Positions 4,706-23,204 of a stretch of DNA of 34,488 nt are shown in pieces (within the stretch, counting starts at the first letter, position 1; the number at the start of each line of letters is the position of its first letter). The DNA lies in NCBI GenBank assembly GCA_024404505.1, contig JAKSPU010000015.1:1-34488 (forward strand), given 5' to 3'. Origin of the DNA: Clostridia bacterium. GTDB lineage: Bacteria; Bacillota; Clostridia; Oscillospirales; CAG-272. The translations under genes and the position numbers were made by a program. The notes under the pieces are model-generated. The model was not told where the DNA came from and made no database searches. It was given only the letters and a program-made list of their open reading frames with translations.

Positions 4706-6018
4706 TATAGTTTCTCCTTTTTGATTTTGGCAAAGCCGTTCCTGATGAGAATGGCAAGCGGCTTAGGATTCAGGCCTTCAATCATCAGGGTATTGTTGTA
4801 ACGGATGGGCTTTATCACGAAACCTATGATGACGTTCGTAAAGAACTGCGTGGCAAGGGAAGCCGCCGCAGCCCCGACGGCACCGATCCGGGGGATCAGC
4901 AGCGCGTTGAGGATGATATTGGTCAGCGCACCGGACAGATTGATCATCCACAGATACTTTTGCTTTCCCTCCGCCAGGATCCATATATTCCGTACGGAGC
5001 CATAATAGGAAAAGGTGGAATACCATACTGCGATACGCAGCGGCAGGACGCTGTTCAGATACTTCTCTCCGTACAGGACCAGTATGATCGGCCTCGCGAG
5101 CAGCGTCATGAATATGCACTGGGCGAGAGCCAGATAGGTGATGATCGAGTAGAGGAGCTTCATCTCCGAATGGAAGCCTTCCGTATCCCCTTTCTTTTTG
5201 GCCTCCAGGATCCCGGGCCGGAAGGAATCGACGATGGCGGCAAACACGAAGCCCGTAATGCCGATACAAGCGACAGCCGCGGAATAATACCCCGTTTCGG
5301 TCTCGTCCAGAATCTGCTTCAGCATGATTCTGTCCGTCTGCTGATATATCGTGACCATCATGGCCGACACGATATAATGCTTGCTGCGGCGGAACAGTTC
5401 TCTTCCCAGAGGGAGAGAGACGGAGAGCTTCTGTGCTCCCAACTTCTTATAAAAAATCAACAGGATCGCCGTCACGAAAATGAAGTCGACACTGCTCGTG
5501 ACCGCAAACCAATATACGGACTTCCCGGAAACCAAGAGGAAGATCTTATAGCACGCAACGATGCAATAGGCGAAAAAGGACGCTATGGACGTGTATTTCG
5601 ACAGCAGCTTTGCCTGGAACCAATAATGCAGCACATCGGTCGCCTGGAACAGGAGGGACACGCTGTAGAGGATACCGACCAGGATCGTTTCGGGCTCGTC
5701 CGCGTCGACGATGCGCAGGTATCCGAACACAGCCGCCATGCACGCCAGAGCGGATATGCAGTTCATAAAGACGGCGGTCCCGACGACCTCCCCTTCTTTG
5801 TCCGGCCGTTCGATGATCTCAAGGACCAGCGTTTTGCTGAGTCCCAGCTGCATGATCGGCACCACGAAAGCAACGATAGACGCGGCGTAGTTGATCAGGC
5901 CGTAATTCGACGGGCCGAGGTATCTGGCCGAGATCATGCTGATGACCAGATTGATGACCGACTGCGCTACCTTGCTGGCGATGATCCAACCCGCATTCTT
6001 GATGGTTTTAATATTCAC
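4705..6018 (-). CDS. wzx: Wzx-type oligosaccharide flippase (MOP/PST family)
   Basis: This 437-residue integral membrane protein has the usual length and about 12-14 hydrophobic segments of polysaccharide flippases. The N-terminus (ASKVAQSVINLVISMISARY followed by LGPSNYGLINYA) is characteristic of the PST branch. It would flip undecaprenyl-diphosphate-linked repeat units across the membrane for polymerisation by the Wzy protein in the same operon. The start is a GTG at 6018 with GGAG 8 nt upstream. The stop is fused to the next start (TAATG). It lies 88 bp after the GNAT gene, and that gap holds repeat copy B. Confidence 0.9.
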   Translation of the reverse strand: MNIKTIKNAGWIIASKVAQSVINLVISMISARYLGPSNYGLINYAASIVAFVVPIMQLGLSKTLVLEIIERPDKEGEVVGTAVFMNCISALACMAAVFGYLRIVDADEPETILVGILYSVSLLFQATDVLHYWFQAKLLSKYTSIASFFAYCIVACYKIFLLVSGKSVYWFAVTSSVDFIFVTAILLIFYKKLGAQKLSVSLPLGRELFRRSKHYIVSAMMVTIYQQTDRIMLKQILDETETGYYSAAVACIGITGFVFAAIVDSFRPGILEAKKKGDTEGFHSEMKLLYSIITYLALAQCIFMTLLARPIILVLYGEKYLNSVLPLRIAVWYSTFSYYGSVRNIWILAEGKQKYLWMINLSGALTNIILNALLIPRIGAVGAAAASLATQFFTNVIIGFVIKPIRYNNTLMIEGLNPKPLAILIRNGFAKIKKEKL

Positions 6019-9800: not shown

Positions 9801-11887
9801 CCAGCATAGTAATTTCCTTTAGCATATCCGCCGTAGCCGTTCTTCGAAGAACCGTTCTCATCCAACGGACGGGAATTCTGTACTGTCAGACCGGCATAGG
9901 AAGCATATGCAGAGAGATCAGCCCAGTAATAGTACCAGCCATCGGTAGGAAGATGCTGAACATCCACGACCAGCTTCATACCAGTGGTACCGCGAGTCCA
10001 TTTGTCGGTCGGATTCTTTTTGAAGCCGAACATCAAACGAGGGTTGAATCCGCGAATATCAATATCATCGGGCAGATAGAGCCAGAAGCCCATGCCGCAG
10101 GCACCGGTAATGTCAATATAGTCAGACAGATAACCGCCGATCTGCGCACCATCGGGATCCGTATTCTTGGCACCGTGCGCCTTGATTTCGGCAGCATTGT
10201 ACTCAACGATCAAAGACAGATAATCTTCATAATAAGTGGTTTGAGAATAATCGTAGTGGAGAGCGAGCGCGTAATCACCGTTATGCACCTTGCCGGTCGT
10301 CGCATCAACGGTATAAATATCCAGGGAGCTCTTACTGTTATAATAATCAAAATAACTCCACTTGCTGACATCCTGGTCCTCGAAGTCCCAAATGATCTCA
10401 GAGCCGCGGCCAACCTGAAGCGGAACAGTAGCTTCTACGCTGGGAACGCAGTTTGTCTTGACCGTAATAGTAGAAGTCGTAGCGGTCAGGGTCTCACTCG
10501 TTGCGGTAAATTTACCGTTTTCCACCGTACCAAACTTGGAATCTCCAAGGATGAACGACACGGAATTGGCATCGTAAGCGACTTCAAGGTTAAACTCTCC
10601 GTATGTCGGGACGACATCCACATCGGCGGTCTTTCCATACGGGCAGGAGATAGTTGCCATTGCGAACGAAATCTTATTTGGCGCAACAATGTTGACCTCG
10701 CAGGAGCCGACCTCCTTGCCGTTGTAGATCATCTTGATGGTGTCGGTACCGGTTACACTGCCGGCGGTATAAATGCCATTGACAACTTCGCCGAGCTCTG
10801 CCGTGTATGTAATATCGTCAGGAATCTCTGCGGCCGTACCAGCAGGAGAAACGCCGGTTGCGGCTATTGCAACAGATGCATTGGGCATCACATAGTTATT
10901 GGAAACGGAAACAGCCGCATGGTCAAATACGTTGGACGGTGCAGCCAGTGAAGCGATGATGATACCGTTGGAAATAGCTCTTTCAGAGCCGTCGGAAGGT
11001 CTGTTGTTGACGGTGCATTCATCAGAACCTTCGTTCTTTGCCATGTAGGTGGTAGAACCGCCGCCATCAAGGTTGATTGCATACACGCATCCAGCTTCAA
11101 GCATAATGTTGGCGAGTTCGAGCATGGAAGCACCGCACGAGAACGGCTCCTGACGGCCATCGACGACCGCACAGACGATCTTGCCGTCCTCAGTAATACC
11201 GACCATCGTTCTGGAAGCACGATCAGAATAATAGGAGCTCGTCTGGGTGATCGTAGTCACACCGTTCCACACCAGGACGGAGCCGAAGCAGTTGATGGCT
11301 TCCTGAACACCGACAGTGGACTTCAGACTGTTCCAATCGGCTACGGTTCTGCCAGCGTATGCCTTGCCGTCTTTACCGATTGCAATGTACGCACTATCAC
11401 CATTGTATTCAGTAATGATCGTACCGCCCATAGCCCAAACGCCGGAGGGTTTACCGGTGGTCATGTTGTAGCCGTTACCGTTTGTAGCAGAAACAACATT
11501 GTAGTATTCACTGATAAACTCAGGATCATCGGGATTGGAATACTTTTCGTTTGCTGTTTTCACAGTCTGCGCCAGTTTTTCCATACCGAGAGTATCGTGC
11601 TGCATTCCTTTGTAAGAAATCTGCATGATAACGTCGTCTCTGTTGACATCAGCAGTCGTCACATAATAGACCATCTGCTTTCCGTCTGCGGTAGTGTACG
11701 CGTAGTTCGTGTACTGCGTTACACCGGGGGCAAGAGTTTGCTCCGTGTGCTTGAACACGGTGTGGGTGGCTGACTGATAATCCTTGTTGTAATTTTCGAT
11801 TGCCGCAAATGCCGTAAGCGGCATCACGCTGAAAATCATCATTGCGCAAAGAACTACCGCCAAAACGCGAAATGCTGTTTTACTCAT
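6884..11887 (-). CDS. Secreted phosphodiester glycosidase (NAGPA domain) with C-terminal YYF repeats
   Basis: This 1667-residue protein starts at ATG 11887, 7 nt after AAGGAG; upstream in-frame starts give no sensible leader. A signal peptide (1-27, ending LTAFA) is followed by a NAGPA domain (about 30-320) with the signature NLDGGGSTTYM near residue 274. That family cleaves sugar-1-phosphate phosphodiesters such as GlcNAc-1-P-6-mannose. Next come Ig-like regions, a beta-rich carbohydrate-binding-like module (about 497-735), a cohesin-like segment (about 865-1000), a Cys-pair module (about 1045-1100), and YYF repeats to the C-terminus. These last resemble glucan/choline-binding repeats and should hold the enzyme on the cell surface. 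No LPXTG or membrane anchor is visible. It lies mid-operon among glycan genes, so it probably trims or remodels the polymer. NAGPA assignment is firm; the middle modules are tentative. Confidence 0.9.
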   Translation of the reverse strand: MSKTAFRVLAVVLCAMMIFSVMPLTAFAAIENYNKDYQSATHTVFKHTEQTLAPGVTQYTNYAYTTADGKQMVYYVTTADVNRDDVIMQISYKGMQHDTLGMEKLAQTVKTANEKYSNPDDPEFISEYYNVVSATNGNGYNMTTGKPSGVWAMGGTIITEYNGDSAYIAIGKDGKAYAGRTVADWNSLKSTVGVQEAINCFGSVLVWNGVTTITQTSSYYSDRASRTMVGITEDGKIVCAVVDGRQEPFSCGASMLELANIMLEAGCVYAINLDGGGSTTYMAKNEGSDECTVNNRPSDGSERAISNGIIIASLAAPSNVFDHAAVSVSNNYVMPNASVAIAATGVSPAGTAAEIPDDITYTAELGEVVNGIYTAGSVTGTDTIKMIYNGKEVGSCEVNIVAPNKISFAMATISCPYGKTADVDVVPTYGEFNLEVAYDANSVSFILGDSKFGTVENGKFTATSETLTATTSTITVKTNCVPSVEATVPLQVGRGSEIIWDFEDQDVSKWSYFDYYNSKSSLDIYTVDATTGKVHNGDYALALHYDYSQTTYYEDYLSLIVEYNAAEIKAHGAKNTDPDGAQIGGYLSDYIDITGACGMGFWLYLPDDIDIRGFNPRLMFGFKKNPTDKWTRGTTGMKLVVDVQHLPTDGWYYYWADLSAYASYAGLTVQNSRPLDENGSSKNGYGGYAKGNYYAGSILDFYVEDSAWKSYKEKSYNGNFTLYIDDWTVDYSTVVDDKQAPEFGTAVYACNGMFDAATFADGTTINANEIDFTISVADANRFLPAGVEAYKTTTNAVGLDASTAKVYVDGVQVAASYKNGKIALDKAINLPDGAHKVTFEVADKNGNVGKKIINFTVNANAGYNTIKVVPHNTTMMEVLNGQLYYIDLVATDISKVNKVTTILKVNNVNNWEPMGIVVADGFAAEYALEAGDLGEMTLTITRTGDVEATGEAVIASIPVRAWYPHNVLNRDSAWLIANTRIFPMDIKVVTKAGAIEFVDETDYVGAFSAEMIQIDNEAMCEYGYIGVIKGKENNGTNYKTTLHVHNAQAVADLAATCTKDGYTGRTFCAVCNSVVDWGTTVPATGHTFELVDGVLKCACGELANGEFDGILYADGVAVEGWSGDSYYVGGVALTGVQKIDGYYYDFGTDGVCEGKAKYTGLFFDGEEYRYAQVGELSSGWKQDGDDWYYFDETTLAPIDTLNNGKVIYSFYETGKLVSGKWYTDANGTRYYYGPSYHHGYFRSGYAYLAEVDGKTYNFDGAGYLTGPGVVALRQSTSVPPTLYRFADDCSLIGIVDKDGVVEASNGDLYYAVNGDAKYAGLVKEDGYYYYFRGTDYKAIKSCTAKITYTNGLLPQGTYTFDENYHIVFENGLVENGGETFYFVNGEAQKGLQLIDGNYYFFRNSTSAMMKSMTYTVTTAYGNGLISKATTFVFDENGVGTELKFTGFKTVGSNTYYYVEDVMQKGLQQIDGSYYFFRNSTGAMMTDNTYTVTPAYGNGLITKSTTFAFGANGVGTEVKFTGFKTVGSNTYYYVEDVMQKGLQQIDGSYYFFRNSTGAMMTDNTYTVTPAYGNGLITKSTTFAFGANGVGTEVKFTGFKTVGSNTYYYVDDVMQKGLQQIDGDYYFFRNSTGAMMKSMTYTVQIAYSNGLLTEATRFVFGSTGIGVIG
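7081..7530 (-). repeat. Two perfect 225-bp tandem repeats inside the secreted glycosidase gene
   Basis: 7081-7305 and 7306-7530 read as identical 225-bp copies (75 codons each). Identity continues about 15 bp before and about 30 bp after. Diverged versions of the unit flank them on both sides. This marks a recent duplication in the wall-binding repeat domain. Confidence 0.9.
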
Positions 11888-12090
11888 TGTCATTCTCCTT
11901 CTTTTTTTGTAGGGGGGGCTATATATAATGACCTTTTTCAAACGCCAAACTCTGTCAACCGTTCGCATCGACCCGGCAAAGTACAGTACAGCAACAAATC
12001 TTTCGATTCTCTCACCGTCCTCCTTTCTGAACTATTTCCGAAAAACGGATATGCGAACGGCTGCAATGGTTTGACGTCCAAAAAATGGTA
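11888..12090 (-). other. 203-bp gap before the secreted glycosidase gene
   Basis: This is the longest gap inside the glycan operon. It holds AAGGAG at 11900-11895 for the downstream gene. A TTGACA lies at 11958-11953 but has no good -10 at 17 bp. A TATAAT at 12095-12090 overlaps the stop of the preceding gene and has no good -35. A 25-codon GTG frame (12015-11938) follows an AAAGGAGG. An additional internal promoter or leader is possible but not demonstrated. Confidence 0.35.
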
Positions 12091-13302
12091 TTATATCGTG
12101 TTGTCAGAAGCGTTTTGTATATCGTTATACAGATCGACGTATCTACGGAACTGCCTACGCGCGTCATACCGTGAAGCGCAGGAGATACAGTCCTCTTTCG
12201 AGAAGGGATGCGTATCACGGATCCTCGCAACGGCTCGCTCCAGAGCGTCAACATCGTCGCAATCCACAACGATCCCGGAATTTTCATTGATGCATTCCTG
12301 GCTGCCTCCGGAGCGGTATGTGACGACCGGGATCCCGCAGGCGTTAGCCTCGATATTCACCATACCGAGGACCTCGTCCTTCGTGGGATTGACGAACACA
12401 TCCGAAGCCGAATATATCTTTGCAAGCCCGATCTGATCCTCCGTCCTGTGTATGGAAATGATATCCTGCGGAAGCATACGGTCAACAGTCTCGCTCGTGC
12501 CTACCAGCACGATCTGGTATGTATCATGATCCAACCGCCCGGCGAGCTCAATAAAATCATCCAGACCTTTTCTCTTTTCCCATACGGCGGCAACACCCAG
12601 CACGACGAATTTGTCCTGCGGGATACCGTGCTTTTCACGGAAATCCGATTCCCGCGGCCGGAACACCTCCAGATCGAGCCCGTTCGGGATCGTGACGACG
12701 GGCATTTGAGAAAAGAACGTTTGTCTGACGATATCGGCAAGCCAGCGGGACGGCGTGACGATCGTCAAATCTGTCCCTTCGGTCAGCTTTCTCTTTTGCT
12801 TCAGGCTGCGCTCTGCGCTGTGCCTGTTCAGGACGCCCGTTTCACGGCAGCATTTCTTGCAGCCGTTTTTCCACTCAAGGCATCCGTATACCCCATAATA
12901 GGGACAATACCCCGTAAACGGCCAGCAGTCGTGGAACGTCCACACCACCTTGACGTGATGCTTCCTGATATATCCGAACAGCAGGGGGATATTGATGTAC
13001 GAGCCGTGCAGGTTATGAAGATGCAGGATATCCGGCTTTTGTTTCTTCAGTTTACGCAAAAACAAGGCCGTCCGGAAATACGAATAGAATCCTGCGCGGT
13101 GTGTGTATCGGGCGAGCCGGTTATGGGCATGGCAGTCCAGCCACGTGCTGACGCACAAGGTATCCCCGGCGGCCTCGCCCTCACGGTAACGGCAGGCGGC
13201 GATATTCTCTATCCCCTGCGTCAGGCATTCCTGCCGGATCTGTTTGACGATCTTACCAGTGCTGCCCTTGCCGTAAACAGTATTTATCTGTACTACTTTC
13301 AT
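12091..13302 (-). CDS. GT4-type glycosyltransferase
   Basis: This 403-residue GT-B fold enzyme has the N-terminal KVVQINTVYGKGSTGKI, a Cys-rich insertion (HDCWPFTGYCPYYGVYGC then CKKCC) typical of one group of capsule and exopolysaccharide transferases, and a C-terminal EX7E motif (EVLGMVNIE). It would add one sugar of the repeat unit from a nucleotide-sugar donor on the cytoplasmic side. I chose ATG 13302; a longer frame to 13344 adds residues unlike the family. The start lies 50 bp inside the end of the polymerase gene, so the two share sequence in different frames. Confidence 0.88.
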   Translation of the reverse strand: MKVVQINTVYGKGSTGKIVKQIRQECLTQGIENIAACRYREGEAAGDTLCVSTWLDCHAHNRLARYTHRAGFYSYFRTALFLRKLKKQKPDILHLHNLHGSYINIPLLFGYIRKHHVKVVWTFHDCWPFTGYCPYYGVYGCLEWKNGCKKCCRETGVLNRHSAERSLKQKRKLTEGTDLTIVTPSRWLADIVRQTFFSQMPVVTIPNGLDLEVFRPRESDFREKHGIPQDKFVVLGVAAVWEKRKGLDDFIELAGRLDHDTYQIVLVGTSETVDRMLPQDIISIHRTEDQIGLAKIYSASDVFVNPTKDEVLGMVNIEANACGIPVVTYRSGGSQECINENSGIVVDCDDVDALERAVARIRDTHPFSKEDCISCASRYDARRQFRRYVDLYNDIQNASDNTI

Positions 13303-14575
13303 GCTCCGGTCCCTGCCTCCGAATGATAAGGATGATGAAAACATACGCGATTAGATGGCTTGCCAAAGAGAATTGGAAACGGATGAAGGAGAACACGACG
13401 CCGTACAGCAGGTATACGTACACGGCCTTGGCAAGAAGGTTCTGCTTTTCGCAGTTGTACTTGTTATATACGAGCCGCAGCAGCACCCCGTACAGGAACA
13501 TCTCGATGCCAACCGCCACGATGCCGCCGTCCAGGTACATATTATAGAACGCAGTGGCATAAGCGTTGAAGGAGAGGGAGTCGCCGATCGTTCTTCGCTG
13601 CAGGGCACTCGTGTACATAGAGTCGGAAAGCGTCATGAACTCCGGATACTTGCACAGCCCGACGTTCTCAAGCATTGTGAACACGAATTGGAACAAGCCG
13701 TGAAATCCTCCGGTCCCATACAGAAAAATGCCGGATTCGTTGACCTCCCGGATAATGGCGTTCAGGAACGGGACGCAGCCGCAGATATAGATATATATCT
13801 GCTTCAGCATCGTGGTCATTTTTCCTCCGCGGGCCAGCGTGATCGCCACATACGCGACCACGACGGCGACGGCGACCAGCGCGATGATCCCTTTTTCTTT
13901 TCTGCTCTGGCTTTTGCTTTTGTTTTTGTGACTGCCGTCATCTCCCAACGAATAGGAAAAGAAAAGCATGGTCAGGAAATACAGCATGATGCCGCGGCCC
14001 GCGTCCACGTATATCCGCTCGACGATGACGACAGCCACCAAGGCGAAAACGAGTATCTTGAACTTTCTGTCGTAATTCTCAAACACGATGACGGAGGCGA
14101 TTGCCAGGCAAGCGCCCGAGAACGGAAGGGCTATATAATTATATGTAAGCTTTAAAAAGATATTGGAATATACGTTTCCGAAGGACGTCCTGATGGTGTT
14201 GAAACTCTTCGTGCCGGCACACAGCGCATTGATGTTGAGGATCGCGGGGTACAGCAAAAGGAGGATCGTAAAGCCCAGCAGCGCAAGGAGCAGGTTTTTG
14301 TTGATGCTGTATCTCGCCTCCGTTTTAAAAGCGCTTTTCGTGATCAGGATGCGGCTGACCAGCAGGGACCCGATCAAGAAAGAAAACACACCGACGGCGA
14401 TGACAAGATAAGTCAGATCGTCGCTCCAGCCGAGCCCGATCAAGTGCATACATTCAAAGAACATGATGACGCCCCAAAGCAGCGGAAAGACTACTGCGTG
14501 CGTCAATCTTTTTTGATTCAACAGATACGCGATAACGGCGCATATGAAAAACGCAAAAGGCAGCACTATTGCCAT
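13253..14575 (-). CDS. wzy: Wzy-like polysaccharide polymerase
   Basis: This 440-residue protein has about 11-12 hydrophobic helices and a large loop between them (about 280-345 region) containing GGFHGLFQFVFTMLENVG, a layout typical of O-antigen/capsule polymerases of the EpsG/OatA-independent Wzy group. Sequence conservation in this family is weak, so the call rests on topology and context. It would join flipped repeat units outside the membrane. I chose ATG 14575 (MAIVLPFAFFICAV), with AGGAAGG just upstream; a frame to 14650 adds non-family residues. Its 3' end overlaps the next transferase by 50 bp. Confidence 0.78.
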   Translation of the reverse strand: MAIVLPFAFFICAVIAYLLNQKRLTHAVVFPLLWGVIMFFECMHLIGLGWSDDLTYLVIAVGVFSFLIGSLLVSRILITKSAFKTEARYSINKNLLLALLGFTILLLLYPAILNINALCAGTKSFNTIRTSFGNVYSNIFLKLTYNYIALPFSGACLAIASVIVFENYDRKFKILVFALVAVVIVERIYVDAGRGIMLYFLTMLFFSYSLGDDGSHKNKSKSQSRKEKGIIALVAVAVVVAYVAITLARGGKMTTMLKQIYIYICGCVPFLNAIIREVNESGIFLYGTGGFHGLFQFVFTMLENVGLCKYPEFMTLSDSMYTSALQRRTIGDSLSFNAYATAFYNMYLDGGIVAVGIEMFLYGVLLRLVYNKYNCEKQNLLAKAVYVYLLYGVVFSFIRFQFSLASHLIAYVFIILIIRRQGPEHESSTDKYCLRQGQHW

Positions 14576-14609
14576 AAGCAGTCCTTCCTCTTCAAAGTAT
14601 TGGCTTGTT

Positions 14610-15794
14610 TTATTGTCCTGTGCAAACGCCGCCGTTCCACATATCGACAATCTTTTTCACCTGCACCGACGGATTCTTCCGGTTTTCCACGAACAACTGT
14701 CCCTCGTGCGCTTTCTGTGCGAATTTACCCGTTTTGTCCCCGCTGATCTCTACGATCTTTTCCGCCAGCGCCCCGGCAGAATCGTCCGCCGGATAATTTA
14801 GGTAGGCGTCGTATTCATCCGGCACGCCGCCCAGCTTATAGGCTGCGACGGGGATCCCGGAGGCCAGATATTCCATCGTCTTGGAGGGGAAGCTGTATTT
14901 CGTGTATTCGCCGTCATTCATCCGCGGATTGATCAGCAGGTCCGTTTTCTTGTAAAACTCCGTAAGCTCCTGTTTGGAAACGAAGCCGTGATATACGACG
15001 TTGGTATGCTCCGCAGCCGCCTGCCTGACGTATGGGATCGCCTCTCCGCTGCCGAACAGGTGCAGCTCTATGCTCTTGTTTTCGATCAGGCAGAAAGCGT
15101 CTATCAGGTTTTTGATCCCGAACCGGAAATTCATGGTCCCTGCGTAGACGGCGATGAACTTATCCGTCGGCTCCGCGTCCTCTCTCCTGAAAAGGCCGTT
15201 CGCGATCCCTTCCACGACGACGTAGGGCTTGTCTCCGACCTTGAGCGGATACTTCATCTCATCCGTCAGCAGCACGTACTGATCTATCCGCCCGAGATAC
15301 CTGTATATTCGCTTGTTGTTCACCTTCCGCAGAAAGCTCTTCAGGCGGCTCGTCTTCTTCAGATCGTAGTATTCCGGCAGATCGGTAACGATCAGGGTGA
15401 TCCGGTACCTCTTGTCGAGCCTGCTGACCGCCTTCAAAAAGGGCAGGTAGGCGGAGTAAACGACGATATCGGTGTCTTCCGATTTTTTTAAGAGCCTTTT
15501 TATCCGTCTGTATCTTCCGGATTGCTTCATGATCGGGAGATTGACGGAGCCGACCTCGTGGTTCTCTCCGTTTTCGCCCCAATCGGCATCCTTCAGTATC
15601 AGCTGTCTGTATCCCCTCGGGAACGTACCGACCGGAAGGACGTTGATGATCTTATGCTCCACGCCGTTTGCCCTGAAGCCTTCAAGCAGACTCCACTCAT
15701 AGTTGTTGGCCTGATTCTGGATGGCGCGGGAGGGCGTGTTCTCTATTATCTCTGTTTCCCGATCCTTCGGAAACAAGGCACCAATAAAGATCAT
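14610..15794 (-). CDS. GT4-type glycosyltransferase
   Basis: This 394-residue protein begins MIFIGALFPKDRE at ATG 15794 with AAGGAAG 8 nt upstream. The open frame continues upstream to 16031, but that part overlaps another transferase and has no family resemblance, so it is excluded. The C-terminal half carries AVYAGTMNFRFGI (acceptor of the donor nucleotide in GT-B enzymes), LHLFGSGEA and SFPSKTMEYLASGIPVAAY, a pattern typical of GT4 enzymes. It would extend the lipid-linked repeat unit. Sugar specificity is not visible. Confidence 0.85.
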   Translation of the reverse strand: MIFIGALFPKDRETEIIENTPSRAIQNQANNYEWSLLEGFRANGVEHKIINVLPVGTFPRGYRQLILKDADWGENGENHEVGSVNLPIMKQSGRYRRIKRLLKKSEDTDIVVYSAYLPFLKAVSRLDKRYRITLIVTDLPEYYDLKKTSRLKSFLRKVNNKRIYRYLGRIDQYVLLTDEMKYPLKVGDKPYVVVEGIANGLFRREDAEPTDKFIAVYAGTMNFRFGIKNLIDAFCLIENKSIELHLFGSGEAIPYVRQAAAEHTNVVYHGFVSKQELTEFYKKTDLLINPRMNDGEYTKYSFPSKTMEYLASGIPVAAYKLGGVPDEYDAYLNYPADDSAGALAEKIVEISGDKTGKFAQKAHEGQLFVENRKNPSVQVKKIVDMWNGGVCTGQ

Positions 15795-15849
15795 ATCGTT
15801 GTCTTCCTTAACTGTGGGATATATGGCTTTCGAACGGCGCGGCGGCCCG

Positions 15850-16896
15850 TCACCGGGCAAGCAACCGAATCTCGGCCAAAAGGCCGTCCCACGAGGGCCT
15901 CTCCTCCGGCACGGAGGTGTCTGCTTTGAGCGGGATACGGCCGTTGATGATCTCCGCCATACGTCCGGCCAGTGCGCCGCCGTCATGTACGGGGAAGAGA
16001 TACGCGTTGGGATACCCCGCAAGGCATTCACCGGCGAAGGGCGTGTCGCTTGCCACGATCAGCGTACCGCAGGAACGCGCCTCCAGCAGCGGGAGTCCGA
16101 CCGTTTCTATATAGGACGGGAACAGCAGCGTCCCCGCGTTGTATTCCTCCTGCATCCGGCCGCGGTCGAGCCTTCCGACGCATACGATATTCGGATGTCT
16201 GACCGTGCCCTCCGGCAGCGTCAGACGGACGGTGAAATCACGGATGCCCCGGTCGTTCAGGAGATCGCACGCCTGCACGATGACGTCGACGTCCTTATAT
16301 ATCTCCCCGTTGGTCGGGTAAAAGAATCTGTCGTTCCCGAATTTTTCCGTGCCGGGTGAGAACAGGTCGATTTCCGGGAAAGCGATCCCTATCCTGTCCT
16401 CGTCTATGCCGACTGACCTTGAAACGGCCTCCCGCATCCATTCGGTCTGTACGAACACCTTGTCGGCACGCTTGGCGGAGGCCTTGATGAATCTGCCGAT
16501 AATATGCTGGATCACCGCGCTCCGGCGCTCTGCTTTTTTGAAAAAAGAGAAGCGTTTCACGTCCTGAAACGGGAGCGATTGATGGATATATATCGCCTGC
16601 GGGACCCGCAGGCCGAAGGTCATAATATTCTGCAGCGAAACGACGATGTCCGGCTCAAGGGAGCTTATCACTTTCTTCCCGGAAAAGCAGTCGAAAAAGA
16701 CTTTACGGACCCGGCCGCTTTTGACCTCCGGGAAACACCGGATCTTTATCCTGTCGGTTTCGTCAAGATACGGGTCGCCAAGCAGGAAGATCCATTCGTT
16801 TTCACTGTCGTTCGCTTTCACGTAGTTGTAAAACTGCTTCAATATCGTCATTGCCCCTCCCGTAGAAGCGGCGATATCATTTACGACGATCCTCAT
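15850..16896 (-). CDS. GT4-type glycosyltransferase
   Basis: This 348-residue GT-B enzyme begins RIVVNDIAASTGGAMTILKQ, where the AASTGGA loop matches the N-terminal Gly-rich donor loop. The C-terminal motif ETVGLPLLEARSCGTLIVAS is the EX7E element that contacts the nucleotide sugar. The start overlaps the previous stop by ATGA, and its Shine-Dalgarno (GGAAAGG) lies in that gene. It should add a sugar of the repeat unit. The central FFYPTNGEIYKDVDVIVQA is like that of rhamnosyl and mannosyl transferases, but this does not settle the specificity. Confidence 0.87.
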   Translation of the reverse strand: MRIVVNDIAASTGGAMTILKQFYNYVKANDSENEWIFLLGDPYLDETDRIKIRCFPEVKSGRVRKVFFDCFSGKKVISSLEPDIVVSLQNIMTFGLRVPQAIYIHQSLPFQDVKRFSFFKKAERRSAVIQHIIGRFIKASAKRADKVFVQTEWMREAVSRSVGIDEDRIGIAFPEIDLFSPGTEKFGNDRFFYPTNGEIYKDVDVIVQACDLLNDRGIRDFTVRLTLPEGTVRHPNIVCVGRLDRGRMQEEYNAGTLLFPSYIETVGLPLLEARSCGTLIVASDTPFAGECLAGYPNAYLFPVHDGGALAGRMAEIINGRIPLKADTSVPEERPSWDGLLAEIRLLAR

Positions 16897-18107
16897 ACCT
16901 TTCCATTAACAATCCTTCTGTAATTGTTCTCAACGTTATAATGCGCTGCGAGGTAGTCAATGGCGCCGTGCGGATACGCATCGCCGTCAGCATCGATGCG
17001 GCATATCATGTCCGTCAGCGCGGCAAACCGCTGCACGTCGCTGCTTTCACACCACCAGCCGAGCTTTCCCTCCGTGATGACGGTTCCGATATCCGTAGCC
17101 GTGTCCGTACAGGCCAAGACCGGCAGCCCCGCCTGCAGATAGGACAACAGTCTCGACGGGAAATTGGGTATCGTGAATCTGTGGTCGAGGAAAATAAGGC
17201 CGACGTCGCACGCGGCGACCAACCTGTCGTAATCATCCTTCGGCAGCCGCTTCAACAGCTTCATGTTGGCAGGGCTTTCCTCGTTGAAGAATGCCTCGAG
17301 CTGCCTGTATTCCGTGCCGTCGCCCACGACAAGGAAGAAGGCCCGGTCGTTGTCCTTCCCGGCGCGGAGACAGTCGATGAGGAAGGGGATCCCCTGCGGC
17401 TTTCCGAGGTTCCCGCCATACACAAACACCTTTTTATCGGCCGGGATGCCGTACTTGCTTCGCATATCGAGCTTTTCCCGATCGTTCAGAAGCACGGGCT
17501 GCACCTTGACCGCGTTCGGGCAGATCTCTACGACCGAAGGGTCCACCTGCGGATTGTGCTCGATGATATAGTCGAAGTTTGCCTGACTCATGCAGCCGAT
17601 GCGGTCGGAGACGGCGTACAGCTGCTTCTCTTTCCGGCGAAAATAACGGTACAATATGCTCTTGGGGCCTGTTTTCTTCATCATGCCGAGATCGACGGCA
17701 TTCTGCGGGAATATATCTCTCAAAAGCAGGTACGTTCTGGCTCCGTCCCGCTTTTTTACGTACCTGACGACGCCCGCCGCTGTTACGGGGGGCGTCGGAT
17801 AGAGGATCAGGTCAAACCTGACGTCCCCATAGAACCGTTTGATCGTCTTCCTGTACTTCAGCGGAAGACATACCGTCGTAAGCCCCTTGCGTACGGCATT
17901 CGCCTTTTTGTTCTTCCCGATGGCAACGCGTACGATCCGGCAGCCGTCCTCGTTCTCTGCTTCGGTCGGGCTGAAGTCATCGTCCCTTTTTGCACAGACG
18001 ACGAAAACCTCATGCCCGTTCCGGCGGAACTCATGCAGCAGGTCCGTCGAGATGCTGTGTTCCGCCAGATGCGGCAGCGAGCTGATTGAAAGGAACAAAA
18101 CGTTCAT
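16893..18107 (-). CDS. GT4-type glycosyltransferase (WbuB-like)
   Basis: This 404-residue enzyme has the N-terminal LFLSISSLPHLAEHSISTDL of WbuB-like transferases. The C-terminal half has VFVYGGNLGKPQGIPFLIDC and then IPNFPSRLLSYLQAGLPVLA, where PSRLLSY replaces the PSK.. form often seen. WbuB homologues commonly add the second sugar, often an N-acetylated one. GGGAG is 6 nt before the ATG. It follows the ATP-grasp gene by 12 bp and overlaps the next transferase by 4 bp, so its position just after the phosphoglycosyl transferase unit fits an early step. This step is inferred. Confidence 0.87.
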   Translation of the reverse strand: MNVLFLSISSLPHLAEHSISTDLLHEFRRNGHEVFVVCAKRDDDFSPTEAENEDGCRIVRVAIGKNKKANAVRKGLTTVCLPLKYRKTIKRFYGDVRFDLILYPTPPVTAAGVVRYVKKRDGARTYLLLRDIFPQNAVDLGMMKKTGPKSILYRYFRRKEKQLYAVSDRIGCMSQANFDYIIEHNPQVDPSVVEICPNAVKVQPVLLNDREKLDMRSKYGIPADKKVFVYGGNLGKPQGIPFLIDCLRAGKDNDRAFFLVVGDGTEYRQLEAFFNEESPANMKLLKRLPKDDYDRLVAACDVGLIFLDHRFTIPNFPSRLLSYLQAGLPVLACTDTATDIGTVITEGKLGWWCESSDVQRFAALTDMICRIDADGDAYPHGAIDYLAAHYNVENNYRRIVNGKV

Positions 18108-18119
18108 ACTGTACTCCCG

Positions 18120-19343
18120 TCAGACACGCATCCAATCGTGGCGAAGGATATCGTCTCCGTCCTCGTTGACTGCTTTTACGTTGTCGCAAGCCGTTTTATG
18201 CTTTTTCAGAAGTGCGTCCTCATTGTCGGCTTCCACCGTAAAGTAGGCCGCCCGGTCGCCGCTGCTGTTGGCGCCGGTTATGCTCGTGCCCTTTGCCTTC
18301 AGGCAGTAGTATTCGGAAATAACGCCCTCCGCGAGTAATTCCTCAAATCCCTCAAGGTGATCGAAAACACCTCTGCGGGCATACAGGAATTCATTTATGA
18401 CCATCAGACCGCGGGACGGCTCGTGATCCAGCTCCGGTTTATTGCCGACGGTCAGCTCGACGACGGCATCGATGACGTCAAAGCCCGTCTTTTTTTTGAT
18501 CAGGCGGTACTTATCTCCGCCGCCCGTCCGCGCGCAGAACTCCACAACGGAGATCTTTTCCCCGTCGCAGATCATCTGGACCAGCATCGGGGAGTCGGTA
18601 AGCCCGAAGGCGTCCGCGATTCTCTGACATACGTCGGCTATCTTGCCGCTGACGGTATCCGACACCTTGGCGGGGCATCTCGTCCGACAGATAACGAACC
18701 TGTCCTTGCTCGGGATCTTGTCAAGATTCGAGGAGCAGAGGACCTTCGCCTTCCCGTGCGAAACATACACATCGACGGAGATCTCGCTGCCCTCAACGTA
18801 CTCCTCGACGATCGCCCGGTGGGTGCGGCTGATCCTTTTCGCGTTGCTGAAGGCATCCGCCAGCTGAGCAAAGTTCTCCACCTTGACCACGCCCCGGGAG
18901 CTGTACGAGTCCACGGGCTTTACGATCAGCGGATAAGTCAATCCGGAAACCGCGGCCTCATTGATTTCGTCGGCTATCACGTATTTCGACGTGGGGATGC
19001 CGTTTTCAAGGAAAACCTTTTTCATGAAAGTCTTCTGGGAGACCTTGACTGCCGTATCGAAATCTATGTAGCAGGGGAGATTCAGATGCTCGGAGACCTC
19101 CGCTACGACCTGCAGGACCTGATCGGCGCACACGGTTATCACAAAATCCACCTGCTCCGTCCTTGCGACCCGCTCAACGGCCTCCACATCCAGAACGGAA
19201 ACCGGGTAGAACTTGTCCGCATACTGTCTGCCGAGGACCTTTTCATTCATGTCGGCGAGGATCGTATAGTAGCCTCTGCTCCGCAGATTATTGAGGAGCT
19301 CGATCTGCGGGATCCCGCCGCACAGAACCAATGCCTTTTTCAT
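18120..19343 (-). CDS. ATP-grasp ligase (carboxylate-amine/thiol ligase-like)
   Basis: This 407-residue protein has the carbamoyl-phosphate-synthase-like ATP-grasp layout. A pre-ATP-grasp Rossmann part opens with KALVLCGGIPQIELL. The nucleotide-binding lobes follow, with YPLIVKPVDSYSSRGVVKV, VEEYVEGSEISVDVY and the metal-binding VVEFCARTGGGD. Family members activate a carboxylate as an acyl phosphate and join it to an amine or other nucleophile. It overlaps the phosphoglycosyl transferase stop by ATGA. In surface-glycan loci such enzymes may make amide-linked sugar decorations such as amino-acid substituents. That role is inferred; neither substrate is visible. Confidence 0.87.
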   Translation of the reverse strand: MKKALVLCGGIPQIELLNNLRSRGYYTILADMNEKVLGRQYADKFYPVSVLDVEAVERVARTEQVDFVITVCADQVLQVVAEVSEHLNLPCYIDFDTAVKVSQKTFMKKVFLENGIPTSKYVIADEINEAAVSGLTYPLIVKPVDSYSSRGVVKVENFAQLADAFSNAKRISRTHRAIVEEYVEGSEISVDVYVSHGKAKVLCSSNLDKIPSKDRFVICRTRCPAKVSDTVSGKIADVCQRIADAFGLTDSPMLVQMICDGEKISVVEFCARTGGGDKYRLIKKKTGFDVIDAVVELTVGNKPELDHEPSRGLMVINEFLYARRGVFDHLEGFEELLAEGVISEYYCLKAKGTSITGANSSGDRAAYFTVEADNEDALLKKHKTACDNVKAVNEDGDDILRHDWMRV

Positions 19344-20026
19344 ACCTGATCAACCGTCTCTTTCTCTTTTACGCGATGGTCGCTTTCAAAATAGTCGAAT
19401 ATCGTTTCCGTATTCCGGAACTCGATCCCTTCCCGGGCAAACACCTTTGTAACGGTCTTGAAGAAGATCTTCACATCCAGCAGGAAGGATACGTTCTCGA
19501 CGTACTCGATATCCTTGCCGAAGCGCATTTCCCACGTCAGGGCGTTTCTTCCGCTCACCTGTGAAAGGCCGGTCAGTCCCGGACGGACGAGATGCCTCCG
19601 GCGCTCGTAATCCGAATAGTAGGGCAGGTAGCGGCAGAGCCACGGCCGCGGCCCGATGACAGCCATATCGCCCTTGATGATATTGAGCAGCTCGCCGAGC
19701 TCGTCAAGAGAGGTCCTGCGCAAAAAGCGGCCGTATCGATTCATTCTTTGCTCATCGGGCAAAAGATTCCCGTCCTCGCCGCGTTTGTTCGACATGGTCC
19801 GGAATTTGATCAGATAGAACACCTTTTCGCTGCCGGTTTCGGGGTCCGTTTTTCCCGGGCGGGGTTGGATAAAGAAAGGATTCCCTTTCATCGCAACAGC
19901 GCCGACAACGGTCAGGGCCAAAAACAACGGAGACAAAACCAGGAAAGCGTTCAAAGCCAGGAGAAAATCCAATATTCTTTTTACGTATCGGTTATAAAAC
20001 CCGTCTTTTCCCTTTTTCACGTGCAT
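19340..20026 (-). CDS. Undecaprenyl-phosphate phosphoglycosyl transferase (small monotopic PGT)
   Basis: This 228-residue enzyme starts repeat-unit assembly by moving a sugar phosphate from a UDP-sugar to undecaprenyl phosphate. It has one re-entrant N-terminal hydrophobic helix (about 16-45), KFRTM, the Asp-Glu catalytic dyad in TSLDELGELLNIIKGDMAVI, GPRP, and RPGLTGLSQVSGRN, all in the order of PglC/WcaJ-type minimal PGTs. ATG 20026 is only 3 nt after GAGG, while the GTG at 20020 has 8 nt spacing, so the true start may be 20020. It sits between the phospho-decoration module and the glycosyltransferases and overlaps the ATP-grasp start. Confidence 0.92.
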   Translation of the reverse strand: MHVKKGKDGFYNRYVKRILDFLLALNAFLVLSPLFLALTVVGAVAMKGNPFFIQPRPGKTDPETGSEKVFYLIKFRTMSNKRGEDGNLLPDEQRMNRYGRFLRRTSLDELGELLNIIKGDMAVIGPRPWLCRYLPYYSDYERRRHLVRPGLTGLSQVSGRNALTWEMRFGKDIEYVENVSFLLDVKIFFKTVTKVFAREGIEFRNTETIFDYFESDHRVKEKETVDQV

Positions 20027-20113: not shown

Positions 20114-20845
20114 TCACAGCACCCTGCTGATGATCCCGTAGTTCTTCTTTTTTGCGGAGTCGTCGCCGACGTGATACATACCGCTGGCGGTATAGTCGTC
20201 CCACGGGTGCTTTCTGGTCCGGAGAAGGATCTGCATACCGCGCAGCACGCTTCCCTGACTGATCAGAAGGATCCTCTTGCCGGTCAGCTTCTCGTTGATA
20301 TATTCCAGCGTATCCGCGCAGTTGGCGATCACCGTCCCCCACGACGTGCCCCGGGGTGTTCTTGCGAACATATTCATCTCGACCTCGCGGGCAAGGAAAA
20401 CGGGATCGTGCTCAAGGTCAAAGTACGACTTGTACTCCCAGCCGGTATTGTCGATGCCGTGCAGCTTTTCGACCTTCACGGCAGGGAATCTCTGGGGCCT
20501 TGACATGATGATGGCCTGCGTGTTCACGACTCTGGCGATCGGGCCGTACAGGGCGATATCGAAGCCGTAGGCATCAAGCTCCTCCGCCTGCCGCCTCGTA
20601 ATTTCCGTCCCTGCATCGGTAAAGACGCAGTTATCGGACGTGTCGCTCATGAATTCGTGCCTTGCAACGGCGACCGTTTCAGCGTGCCGGATCAGATGGA
20701 TGGAGGCTGCCTTCACCCCGGGGACCGCGAAGTCCGGGATATAATCGATCCTGCCGTCAACCGGGTCGATCCGGATGCCCCATTTCAGCAATGTGTCGGT
20801 GATCCTGCTCCGTTCCCCGACGGGAATAGTGTTAACATCAAACAT
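20114..20845 (-). CDS. Histidine-phosphatase-superfamily protein lacking second catalytic His
   Basis: This 243-residue protein has the phosphoglycerate-mutase fold. LIRHAET carries the nucleophile-type His54, and IARVVNTQAIIM carries the expected phosphate-binding Arg. A 50-residue N-terminal extension precedes the RHG motif, which normally starts near residue 10. In the usual (V/I)SHGG motif the proton-transfer His is Gln: ILLISQGSVLRG, Gln197. The enzyme may be slow, altered or non-catalytic. It lies 14 bp after a nucleotidyltransferase gene and ahead of the phosphoglycosyl transferase, so a role in making or binding a phosphorylated precursor is plausible. That role is inferred. Confidence 0.85.
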   Translation of the reverse strand: MFDVNTIPVGERSRITDTLLKWGIRIDPVDGRIDYIPDFAVPGVKAASIHLIRHAETVAVARHEFMSDTSDNCVFTDAGTEITRRQAEELDAYGFDIALYGPIARVVNTQAIIMSRPQRFPAVKVEKLHGIDNTGWEYKSYFDLEHDPVFLAREVEMNMFARTPRGTSWGTVIANCADTLEYINEKLTGKRILLISQGSVLRGMQILLRTRKHPWDDYTASGMYHVGDDSAKKKNYGIISRVL

Positions 20846-20859
20846 ATGGTGTGATTTCC

Positions 20860-21414
20860 TTATTTTACGCCGCAGCTCTTTCTGACTTTTTCAAGCAGAT
20901 CGTTCTCTACAAGGTACCGATAGACCGCCGGCGGGACGAGATGCGCCCATTCCGTCCCGTTGACGATCGCGTTCCTGATGTCGGTGCTGCACATCTTCTT
21001 TTCATGATCGTCAAAAAGCACGATCGTTTTATACCCCAATTCCCCGAGGCGGTGCAGCTTCTCGTATCCCCACTTATCGTAGATGGTGAAGAACGAGGTC
21101 GCATTAAGCGGGATATAGTTATACAGGATCTCTGGATTCTCGATCGGATACGGCACGATCTCAAAGTCGTCCCGGTTGATCCCTGCCTCGAGCAGAGCCG
21201 CCCTGATCATGCAGAACCGCTCGTAAAAAGTAAACGGGTTATCCGAAGGGTTGCTCCGGTGAGGATCGATCTCCTCGCGGATCAGGTGGGCGTTTTCCGG
21301 AGAGGTGACTCCCACGATGAGTTTCCTGCACTGTTTCTTTGCTTCAAGGGCATAAGTCAGGTGGTCGTTGTGGAACAACTGAAATCTGCCGTGAATAAAT
21401 CCTAATTCTTCCAT
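20860..21414 (-). CDS. NadM-like nucleotidyltransferase (cytidylyltransferase superfamily)
   Basis: This 184-residue protein has the HxxH active-site loop GRFQLFHNDHL (residues 9-19, His15 and His18) and the late STDIRNAIVNG motif (143 on), as in NMN adenylyltransferases of the NadM type. Classic members have HNGH, so HNDH with Asp17 is a variation. Such enzymes couple a phosphate compound to NMP from ATP or CTP and release pyrophosphate. It follows the pyrophosphatase-like gene by 3 bp, in an operon headed by LicD. Rather than making NAD, it may activate the group LicD transfers. It does not have the GTFD..HxGH form of TarD/TagD. Donor and substrate are unknown. Confidence 0.85.
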   Translation of the reverse strand: MEELGFIHGRFQLFHNDHLTYALEAKKQCRKLIVGVTSPENAHLIREEIDPHRSNPSDNPFTFYERFCMIRAALLEAGINRDDFEIVPYPIENPEILYNYIPLNATSFFTIYDKWGYEKLHRLGELGYKTIVLFDDHEKKMCSTDIRNAIVNGTEWAHLVPPAVYRYLVENDLLEKVRKSCGVK

Positions 21415-21417
21415 ACG

Positions 21418-22353
21418 TTAATCCTTGAATCGTTTGATTATTTCTTTCCGCAGATACGGCTGCGGCAATTCGGCAACACCGTTTTCAAACGACGCGCCGA
21501 ACCTGCGGGCGAGTTCTTCCTGACAAGCGGTATCATCACATACGAAATACCCCGTATGGCGACCGATGTCGATCACGTTCAGCATCCAATCGTGACCCGG
21601 CTCATCCAGCCATCCGCGTATTTCGTTGAGCCCTTCGAGTATCTTGTGTGCGTCCCACACGGCGATCTGCGCCACACGGTCGGGAAGACCGCTGTCGGGG
21701 GGGAGCGCTTTCACGTCATTCAGCAGCGCGTTTTTCAGATCGGCTTCGATATCCGACTGGACCGCCGAAAAATAAACGGCGCGCCATTCGTCCCCGACGC
21801 CGGCGGCAGCGCATAACTCACGGTATGCCTCGATATCCTCGCTCGTCGTGTTGCCGGACGTCAGGTCCAGCGTGTTGTCCAGGATCGCGGCGATGAGCAG
21901 GAGCGCGGTATCCCGCATCATTTCGGACTGCAGCCCCGCCTTTTTCCATTCGCGGTATACCAGCGTCGCAGCCGCTCCGATAAACTCAATGTGCGTCCCT
22001 CTGCCGATCTTGTCCTTCCAGTACGCCTCAAAGCCGACGTGATGGTCATATACGGCGGCGACTTTATCCGCCGGGACGTCATCTTGCAGGTACCGGGGGT
22101 CGGATATGTCGACCACGACGTATCGGGCCGTGTCGGCTTCGATATCCTCCGGCAGCGCCGTTTCGATATGCCCGCGCGCCTTCAGAAAACCGCAGACGCT
22201 GTAATTGGGGCGCGCCGACGAGTACGCAACGGCCTTTTGGTGCTGCAGACCGAGCAATTCCTTCATGGCCGCGCAGCAGGCGTAGGCGTCTATATCCAGA
22301 TAGCTCGAGCCGGCGGTGACGACGTAAACGGGGGCGTCGTTTGTTCCCATCAT
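21418..22353 (-). CDS. DHH-family phosphoesterase, family-II-pyrophosphatase-like
   Basis: This 311-residue protein has the length and order of family II inorganic pyrophosphatases (about 309). Metal ligands are visible as Asp20/Asp22 (LDIDAY), Asp82 (VVDISD), the DHH triplet at 103-105 (VYDHHV) and Asp159 (AAILDNT). Near the end is Arg302-Lys303, where pyrophosphatases use Arg-Lys to bind phosphate. The first His of the family's GHxxPDxD motif is absent (TAGSSYLDID). It overlaps LicD by ATGA and precedes the nucleotidyltransferase by 3 bp. Removing pyrophosphate would pull that activation forward. It might instead cleave another phosphoester. Confidence 0.82.
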   Translation of the reverse strand: MMGTNDAPVYVVTAGSSYLDIDAYACCAAMKELLGLQHQKAVAYSSARPNYSVCGFLKARGHIETALPEDIEADTARYVVVDISDPRYLQDDVPADKVAAVYDHHVGFEAYWKDKIGRGTHIEFIGAAATLVYREWKKAGLQSEMMRDTALLLIAAILDNTLDLTSGNTTSEDIEAYRELCAAAGVGDEWRAVYFSAVQSDIEADLKNALLNDVKALPPDSGLPDRVAQIAVWDAHKILEGLNEIRGWLDEPGHDWMLNVIDIGRHTGYFVCDDTACQEELARRFGASFENGVAELPQPYLRKEIIKRFKD

Positions 22354-23204
22354 TCGTTTCCCTGCGTCTCGGACGACGCCAGCCGGTATGCCTTGAAAAC
22401 GTGGTGCGTCTTCTGCTTTTCCTTGGGCGGCTCGGGCAGATAGTCGCCGTAAAGACGGGTCAGGTACTCGTCATATCCGATCGGCGCCGGATACTTATCC
22501 CCCTCAAACTCCACCTCGGTCGAACCCGAGAACACCTCGGACGGGCAGATGTCCTTCTCTCCGTAGGGGCACCACGATTTGTTGCCCATGAAAGCGCTTC
22601 CGGCTTGCTTTTTGCGGTAACTGATCCGGATGATCCCGTTGATGAAGAATCTGCTACCGAGCAGTCTTCCGAACGCGATCATCATCTTCAGGACGAACAG
22701 CCTGAACGGCGTTTTAGCCGTCGGGCTCGAGTTTTTGATGGTCCTGAGCCAGAACATCTTCTTCTTCAGGCGCCTGACCTCTTTCTTGGCTTCTTCCACG
22801 TCGTCGGCCCAGTGGTCAAGCGGGAAAATATCGAGCTCCACTCCCTGGACGACGCCGTTATCAAGGCTTGCCTCGATTTTTCTCGTGGCGTTATTGCACA
22901 GCTTCGCAAAGGGGTACCCGTATTTCTTATCCCTTTCTATCGAGTAGAGGCGGTATATACCATGGTCCTCGAATATCCGGATCAACTGCTCATAGTCTTC
23001 CCGGGGGACCAGAACGTCGACGTCGTCATCCCACGGGATGAAGCCCTTGTATCTGATCGCGCCGAGGAGCGTCCCGTGAGCGAGAAAATACCGGATGCCG
23101 TTATTCTCGCAAAAGGAGCGGAACTCCTTCAGCAGATCCAATTCGATATCTTTTAATTCCTGTAAGGTTAATTCTTCTCCGAGTACGGACTGTTCATTAT
23201 TCAC
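22350..23204 (-). CDS. licD: LicD-family phosphotransferase
   Basis: This 284-residue protein has the LicD signature GTLLGAIRYKGFIPWDDDVD (residues 44-63) with the metal-binding Asp triplet. LicD enzymes move a phospho-group such as phosphocholine, or a sugar phosphate, from a CDP-linked donor to a surface glycan, making a phosphodiester. The start is GTG 23204 with GGAGG 8 nt upstream. It is the first gene of the operon, about 78 nt from the predicted start of transcription. LicA/B/C are absent; the neighbouring NadM-like and DHH proteins may supply another donor. Acceptor and donor are unknown. Confidence 0.92.
   Translation of the reverse strand: MNNEQSVLGEELTLQELKDIELDLLKEFRSFCENNGIRYFLAHGTLLGAIRYKGFIPWDDDVDVLVPREDYEQLIRIFEDHGIYRLYSIERDKKYGYPFAKLCNNATRKIEASLDNGVVQGVELDIFPLDHWADDVEEAKKEVRRLKKKMFWLRTIKNSSPTAKTPFRLFVLKMMIAFGRLLGSRFFINGIIRISYRKKQAGSAFMGNKSWCPYGEKDICPSEVFSGSTEVEFEGDKYPAPIGYDEYLTRLYGDYLPEPPKEKQKTHHVFKAYRLASSETQGNE

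Follow-up and report, generated by a model that had tools for sequence, protein, structure and literature searches.

A three-gene unit encoding a DHH-type protein, a NadM-like nucleotidyltransferase and a histidine-phosphatase-fold protein (HP) is conserved among uncultured Clostridia, and in the contig studied here (JAKSPU010000015.1 of a Clostridia bacterium; the whole 34,488-nt stretch is called the window) it lies beside a LicD-family phosphotransferase gene in a surface-glycan locus. Relatives of the NadM-like gene have recurring neighbours in other phyla, and the window's own genome (G000, 89% complete) had no match for two donor routes. We infer, with a probability of roughly 0.45, that these genes form a nucleotidyl-activation module deployed here in a capsule locus, in which the NadM-like enzyme would join a nucleoside triphosphate (NTP) to a small phosphorylated compound (P-X), giving a nucleoside-monophosphate-activated compound (NMP-P-X) and pyrophosphate (PPi), DHH would clear the PPi, and HP, a CDP-alcohol-type transferase or LicD would use P-X.

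Results

DHH, NadM and HP are conserved together, with LicD as an optional partner

The four genes studied span positions 20114–23204. Their layout in the initial annotation proved exact to the base: all four frames are open on the minus strand, with a 4-bp LicD/DHH overlap, a 3-bp gap between DHH and NadM, and a 14-bp gap between NadM and HP.

22350–23204, minus strand: LicD-family phosphotransferase, optional partner (284 aa, GTG start; PF04991)
21418–22353, minus strand: DHH-type protein akin to family II (Mn) inorganic pyrophosphatases (311 aa)
20860–21414, minus strand: NadM-like nucleotidyltransferase, the centre of the module (184 aa; PF01467)
20114–20845, minus strand: histidine-phosphatase-fold protein, HP (243 aa; PF00300)

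Scanning contigs with the NadM-like protein yielded 30 homologous loci (L numbers designate the loci compared), 28 from uncultured Clostridia, many of them ruminant-derived by their record titles, and two more distant (L029 and L030). Family profiles detected HP in 27 of the 28 clostridial loci and DHH in 24, against LicD in only nine (directly flanking in seven); a single-sequence search also showed a LicD fragment at the edge of L014. The expectation that all four genes form one conserved set was therefore not borne out, and by the criterion that came with it these counts place LicD outside the core: the conserved unit is the three-gene DHH-NadM-HP. NadM and HP were separated by 11–62 bp wherever both occurred (27/27), and DHH and NadM by 4–82 bp in 21 of 24 loci, the others having a 50-bp overlap (one locus) or inserts of 1.2 and 2.2 kb. 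Neither the context of L030 nor L145, a lone DHH, was informative.

Among 97 related genomes, full-strength matches to NadM, HP and DHH coincided in the same eight (G000 included) and were adjacent every time; a ninth DHH match, in G089, was weak and not of that strength. Since only 4 of 12 genomes of the same genus (again with G000) carry the set, it is a patchy, accessory module. In the aligned clostridial rows, identity to the window proteins was 71–76% for NadM, 68–74% for HP and 50–58% for DHH, and this conservation across related loci shows that the three are real genes. By eye, the triad of L023 does not lie in a recognisable glycan locus.

The three core proteins depart from their textbook relatives

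The NadM-like protein matches PF01467 (CTP_transf_like) at 36.6 bits against a gathering score of 21, has the HxxH and ST.IR motifs, and carries the stretches GFIHGRFQ.FHNDH, DPHRS, NPFTFYER, IYDKWGYEK and CSTDIR. Against two curated models of nicotinamide mononucleotide (NMN) adenylyltransferases (NMNATs) it scored 61.9 and 65.9 bits, below both cut-offs (181.2 and 127), and a separate NadD elsewhere in G000 (C148) scored 139 bits against a cut-off of 112.45. This second enzyme supports the earlier proposal that the NadM-like protein is distinct from housekeeping synthesis of nicotinamide adenine dinucleotide (NAD), and the window protein probably does not serve as that housekeeping enzyme for NMN. 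Its family shares a 12-residue insert with an invariant R53 (within DPHRS in many members), and invariant W115 and K119; aligned NMN adenylyltransferases have neither the insert nor a counterpart of W115, and carry Arg or Leu at the position of K119. Such differences would fit a changed second substrate.

The DHH protein scored 19.5 bits with PF01368, under its cut-off of 28.1. Its residues 15–303 resemble Mn-dependent pyrophosphatases (NF003877, 70.2 bits, below the equivalog cut-off of 283), it also resembles solved family II pyrophosphatases, and all 15 members aligned retain DxD, DHH and a C-terminal RK. The earlier description of a pyrophosphatase-like partner is supported, and such DHH proteins recur alongside NadM-like genes in Clostridia as well as in Rhodococcus and Halorussus.

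HP matches PF00300 (His_Phos_1) at 46.4 bits against a cut-off of 21.7. In 15 aligned members the nucleophile RH is invariant and the residue following it is variable, while the second catalytic His, placed by alignment to 1h2e and CobC, is Gln in all 15 (S196-Q197-G198), with much of the rest invariant. HP thus lacks one of the two catalytic His that mark branch 1 of the histidine phosphatases, though its fold score passes. No HP relatives were found on plasmids. The LicD protein is a clear PF04991 member (149.2 bits against a gathering score of 22.6).

Plasmid-borne relatives adjoin PEP-synthase-like, SelD-type and ApgM-like genes

NadM-like proteins, a family that plasmid records name only "adenylyltransferase/cytidyltransferase family protein", occurred in 18 such records. 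Fourteen were examined; H18, whose annotation is simply that of an NMN enzyme, served only as outgroup, and gene surroundings were taken from the others. On plasmid pTS2 of Treponema saccharophilum (L048:7986-12349), NadM-like, phosphoenolpyruvate (PEP)-synthase-like, cysteine desulfurase and viperin-family radical SAM genes form one overlapping run; the presence of a prokaryotic viperin (243 bits against a cut-off of 180) inside this operon was unexpected. Matches to the Treponema PEP-synthase-like protein over at least 80% of its length came from four plasmid records (itself included), with NadM in all four. The same neighbour accompanies NadM on an Enterococcus gilvus plasmid, NadM and a radical SAM gene on a Rhodococcus opacus plasmid, and NadM and DHH on a plasmid of R. 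pyridinivorans YC-JH2.

On a Halorussus plasmid (L053) the order is SelD-related, NadM and a DHHA2 protein. In all six Halobaculum records (L052, L147–L151) a run of four overlapping genes leads from acyl-CoA dehydrogenase through two further genes to NadM. Family searches identified the second as ApgM-like and the third as SelD-related in L052; in L147–L151, where several of these genes are annotated as hypothetical, the second was assigned by alignment and the third by alignment (L147, L148, L151) or position (L149, L150). Here SelD-related means NCBIfam NF038049 at 126 bits (L052) or 173 bits (Halorussus), short of the cut-off of 250; the CGC.GK motif is kept in five aligned SelD-related proteins. 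Of the five Rhodococcus records of another type, the two examined (L054, L152) carry acyl-CoA dehydrogenase, SelD, NadM and ApgM-like genes, so that an operon of acyl-CoA dehydrogenase, SelD or SelD-related, NadM-like and ApgM-like genes is common to Rhodococcus and Halobaculum plasmids; the records assign it no function. A phage or defence origin of the window genes was rejected: relatives were absent from viral contigs and phages, and the four window proteins gave no PADLOC match at E 0.001.

In another phylum the NadM-like gene mostly has either an ApgM-like or a CDP-alcohol phosphotransferase partner

Of 297 genomes sampled in L029's phylum (titled Syntrophobacterales), 38 had a NadM-like gene at E ≤ 1e-15. 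In the surroundings of these hits plus L029 (39 loci), an ApgM/PhpG-like gene was present in 20, a CDP-alcohol phosphotransferase in 15, both in none and neither in four; the ApgM/PhpG-like gene is partial in L135, and the CDP-alcohol phosphotransferase lies 2.2 kb off in L131, is split in L113 and is fused in L125. In the last case (L125:7043-8314) a 423-aa CDP-alcohol phosphotransferase/NadM-like fusion reads in frame; since the SelD gene of that contig is broken up between several frames, the fusion may be a sequencing (frameshift) artefact. ApgM-NadM fusions, suspected in L121, L123 and L129 on account of long open frames, were rejected by frame tracing.

Four ApgM-like partners were tested against the PhpG model NF038358 and scored 164–205 bits, none reaching its cut-off of 545; they carry an S[ED]xAH motif at what we take to be the nucleophilic Ser site of phosphoglycerate mutases. 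Five of 38 genomes had SelD within 5 kb of the NadM-like gene, whereas a single gene located randomly in 3.7 Mb would give about 0.1 such cases (6.7e-8, kinship ignored; L113 and L124 come from the same genome, and L142 has a split NadM gene). In L131, an inositol-1-phosphate synthase gene on the other strand (L131:9006-10229) lies between the NadM-like gene, about 0.9 kb away, and the CDP-alcohol transferase, a hint that the donor of this lineage may be inositol-based.

Phosphocholine, selenophosphate and phosphonate as candidate donors

For choline kinase LicA (PF01633) there was no match in G000, in a search whose control matched 5 of 14 genomes and held no known LicA, and which did not extend to LicB and LicC. 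This result supports the earlier view that the donor is probably not phosphocholine. The related expectation of a CDP-type product likewise gained ground and appears likely, because relatives in another phylum adjoin CDP-alcohol phosphotransferases.

Two clostridial loci include SelD together with a cysteine desulfurase: the pair stands between DHH and NadM in L003, and immediately upstream of NadM in L025. A search of 31 genomes put SelD over its cut-off in three. The L003 and L025 genomes have a single copy apiece, lying within the cassette, and the L029 genome has it unlinked, on another contig stretch. In the NadM tree L025 branches first within the clostridial clade (support 0.44), followed by the window and L003; SelD and the desulfurase may be ancestral, with losses in G000 and the other 26 genomes, or may have been acquired on two occasions or exchanged by L003 and L025. 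As the donor in the window, selenophosphate was rejected, since SelD over the cut-off is absent from G000 and from 26 of 28 clostridial genomes; it cannot be the window's donor unless made otherwise. A phosphonate was rejected as a general answer, PEP mutase having no match in G000 and exceeding its cut-off in only 2 of 31 genomes (L019, L029).

The four genes lie in a surface-polysaccharide locus, probably of Wzx/Wzy type

The genes downstream of the four-gene run are as follows.

19340–20026, minus strand: initiating sugar-phosphate transferase (Bac_transf; family profile scan)
18120–19343, minus strand: ATP-grasp ligase (family profile scan)
12091–13344, 14610–16031, 15850–16896 and 16893–18107, minus strand: four glycosyltransferases; the listed start of 14610–16031 is probably too far upstream
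13253–14650, minus strand: membrane protein, putative Wzy polymerase (by position and hydrophobicity only)
6884–11968, minus strand: 1694-aa protein that combines a phosphodiester glycosidase (NAGPA) domain with repeats of choline-binding type
4705–6018, minus strand: putative Wzx-like flippase, with relatives in 18 of 28 clostridial loci

The sugar-phosphate transferase, ATP-grasp ligase, glycosyltransferases, NAGPA protein and flippase-like gene make this a capsule or surface-polysaccharide locus, presumably of Wzx/Wzy type. NAGPA matches were also seen in 9 of 28 related clostridial loci, and a phosphodiester may thus be present in the glycan. A Y_phosphatase3 (tyrosine-phosphatase-family) protein is encoded at 1637–3022, its N-terminal stretch resembling cell-wall-binding repeats by eye.

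Discussion

A putative activation module

In enzymes of the SelD and PEP-synthase-like type, cleavage of ATP into AMP and phosphate is coupled to the phosphorylation of a third compound, and their genes beside NadM suggest that in those lineages P-X is made by such an ATP dikinase reaction. The NadM-like enzyme would then join NTP, most likely CTP, to P-X, giving NMP-P-X and PPi, and hydrolysis of PPi by DHH would pull the reaction forward. We favour CTP because of the CDP-alcohol transferase and LicD neighbours and because the PF01467 enzymes PhpF and Fom1 use it. CDP-alcohol transferases (PF01066) take CDP-activated donors, and phosphoglycerate mutases of both folds act via a phospho-enzyme. 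Activated P-X could be used either by a CDP-alcohol-type transferase or by HP, a presumed phospho-histidine enzyme whose second catalytic residue is changed and which would act as a transferase rather than a phosphatase; judged from its position, HP would be the clostridial counterpart of an ApgM/PhpG-like enzyme. In the window, LicD would put P-X on the glycan.

Several observations weigh against this reading. The nearest solved relatives of the NadM-like protein are true (archaeal) NMN adenylyltransferases, and its sequence is compatible with the use of ATP as well as of CTP. The window DHH, judged by motif and spacing, has Ser at the site where family II pyrophosphatases normally carry their first-motif His, and with that loss it may act on a substrate other than PPi. 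The genomes of L020, L021, L025 and L026 yielded no DHH of the family in a search that did detect one in L030's genome (L021 and L026 begin near contig ends), and L025's genome yielded no HP in a search that gave no match anywhere and lacked a separate positive control. The sequence around the 19 clostridial loci lacking a LicD profile match had no CDP-alcohol transferase or ApgM-like match either, and the proposal would then require HP to be the user at these loci. Within L029's phylum, the mutual exclusion of ApgM-like and CDP-alcohol partners (1.5e-7, kinship ignored) means little, because on the NadM tree the switch amounts to about three changes over 34 loci. Moreover, the four ApgM-like partners compared with PhpG scored 237–332 bits as plain ApgM, L029 and L136 passing the cut-off of 320, and may be ordinary phosphoglycerate mutases, while the CDP-alcohol transferase of L119, best matched by archaetidylinositol-phosphate synthase (104 bits against a cut-off of 180), resembles inositol-phosphate enzymes and could point to a plain polyol donor.

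Alternative explanations

The L119 match is also the starting point for a rival explanation that we consider rather doubtful, namely that the NadM-like protein is an ordinary cytidylyltransferase of polyol phosphates (e.g. inositol- or glycerol-phosphate) derived from the NMNAT fold, whose product LicD or a CDP-alcohol transferase would use to attach polyol phosphate. Capsule systems commonly feature LicD enzymes and CDP-polyol donors, and the inositol-1-phosphate synthase close to the NadM-like gene of L131, with the CDP-alcohol transferase beyond it, would suit such a pathway. However, that synthase was noticed in one locus only, others not having been searched for one, and a polyol donor leaves the SelD, SelD-related, PEP-synthase-like, cysteine desulfurase and ApgM-like neighbours unexplained. 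An NMN or nicotinate-nucleotide adenylyltransferase for NAD salvage, accompanied by DHH and HP as nucleotide or phosphate hydrolases, would agree with the archaeal NMN adenylyltransferases as closest solved structures and with the retained GRFQ.FH..H and ST.IR motifs. Yet NadD in the same genome, scores far under the NMNAT cut-offs, the R53 insert and W115 without counterparts in aligned NMNATs, the patchy spread (strong matches in 8 of 97 relatives), the capsule-locus setting and the SelD, CDP-alcohol transferase and ApgM-like neighbours of relatives make NAD salvage quite improbable.

We also find it unlikely that the module makes a soluble nucleotide-derived compound (a natural product or defence nucleotide) and that its location in a capsule locus is incidental. 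The row of NadM-like, PEP-synthase-like, cysteine desulfurase and viperin genes in T. saccharophilum, the plasmid-borne Rhodococcus and haloarchaeal relatives, and the L023 triad outside a recognisable glycan locus all suggest this, against the Wzx-like flippase in 18 of 28 clostridial loci, the negative PADLOC result for the four window proteins and the lack of viral-contig or phage relatives.

A much bolder scheme would extend the activation module to a widespread, undescribed bacterial and archaeal route, in which an ATP dikinase (SelD, SelD-related or PEP-synthase-like, sometimes fed by a cysteine desulfurase) would make an unusual phosphoryl compound, for instance selenophosphate or thiophosphate, a NadM-fold enzyme would activate it as a CDP analogue, and transferases of the phosphoglycerate-mutase fold, CDP-alcohol or LicD type would install phosphoroselenoate or phosphorothioate on glycans or small molecules. 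We regard this scheme as very improbable. Within it, selenium may have been the ancestral cargo of the clade, L025 branching first albeit with weak support, and later swapped for another X, for example in the window's lineage.

Relation to known systems

According to passages of PMC6697681 and PMC8976061, PhpF and Fom1 are PF01467 cytidylyltransferases of phosphonates, and those of PMC6697681 place FrbH in PF12804. Phosphinothricin biosynthesis offers a parallel in PhpF-PhpG, a PF01467 nucleotidyltransferase (on the same passages) with an ApgM-related enzyme taking the CMP-activated group: the NCBIfam model name describes PhpG as the transferase of PhpF's CMP-activated product, and the ApgM-like partners found here are related to PhpG. 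In contrast to that pathway, G000 has no PEP mutase match, the ApgM-like partners tested fall under the PhpG cut-off, and the clostridial module has a histidine-phosphatase fold; the likeness to PhpF concerns family membership. A non-LicC cytidylyltransferase beside LicD-like transferases or glycosyltransferases is already known from PntC loci for aminoethylphosphonate tailoring, in the relevant passages of PMC6697681, and this pairing is therefore not new; PntC, however, belongs to PF12804 and to PEP-mutase pathways. LicABCD phosphocholine decoration likewise combines LicD with a nucleotidyltransferase in a surface-glycan locus, but in the window there is no choline-kinase match, the NadM-like protein replaces LicC, DHH and HP are added, and LicD is not conserved with the rest.

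The glutamine kinase of the Campylobacter capsule O-methyl phosphoramidate pathway is PEP-synthase-like, as are some NadM neighbours, and the nucleotidyltransferase of that pathway has a different fold. In the part of PMC6429109 that bears on it, this pathway shares with our proposal an unusual phosphoryl compound made with ATP, a cytidine-activated intermediate and transfer to the capsule. No PEP-synthase-like profile match was found in the 28 clostridial loci, which sets them apart. CDP-inositol pathways (IPCT/DIPPS) similarly pair a cytidylyltransferase with a CDP-alcohol phosphotransferase, IPCT differing from NadM-like proteins in its nucleotidyltransferase fold. The orphan SelD systems, as far as the consulted portion of Haft and Self 2008 (PMC2276186) describes them, have SelD near a cysteine-desulfurase-like gene, as do L003 and L025, whose genomes have no second SelD over the cut-off; theirs occur with molybdenum hydroxylase genes and ours with NadM-like genes, and since selenocysteine and selenouridine genes were not searched, the term orphan is not established here. 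Activation followed by transfer is a known logic; in open-licence PMC literature, searched with few terms and excluding preprints, we found no description of the NadM-like, DHH and HP combination or of a link between the NadM-like family and SelD-type enzymes, and both are apparently undescribed there.

If the proposed module is correct, the NadM-like family would be the centre of an unassigned activation pathway present in Clostridia, Rhodococcus, haloarchaea, one Enterococcus and one Treponema, and in 38 of the 297 genomes sampled in L029's phylum. Its neighbours would predict testable chemistry, in which selenophosphate might have a role beyond those in selenoproteins, tRNA and molybdenum enzymes, and the locus would show how LicD-type transferases of gut bacteria could decorate glycans without phosphocholine.

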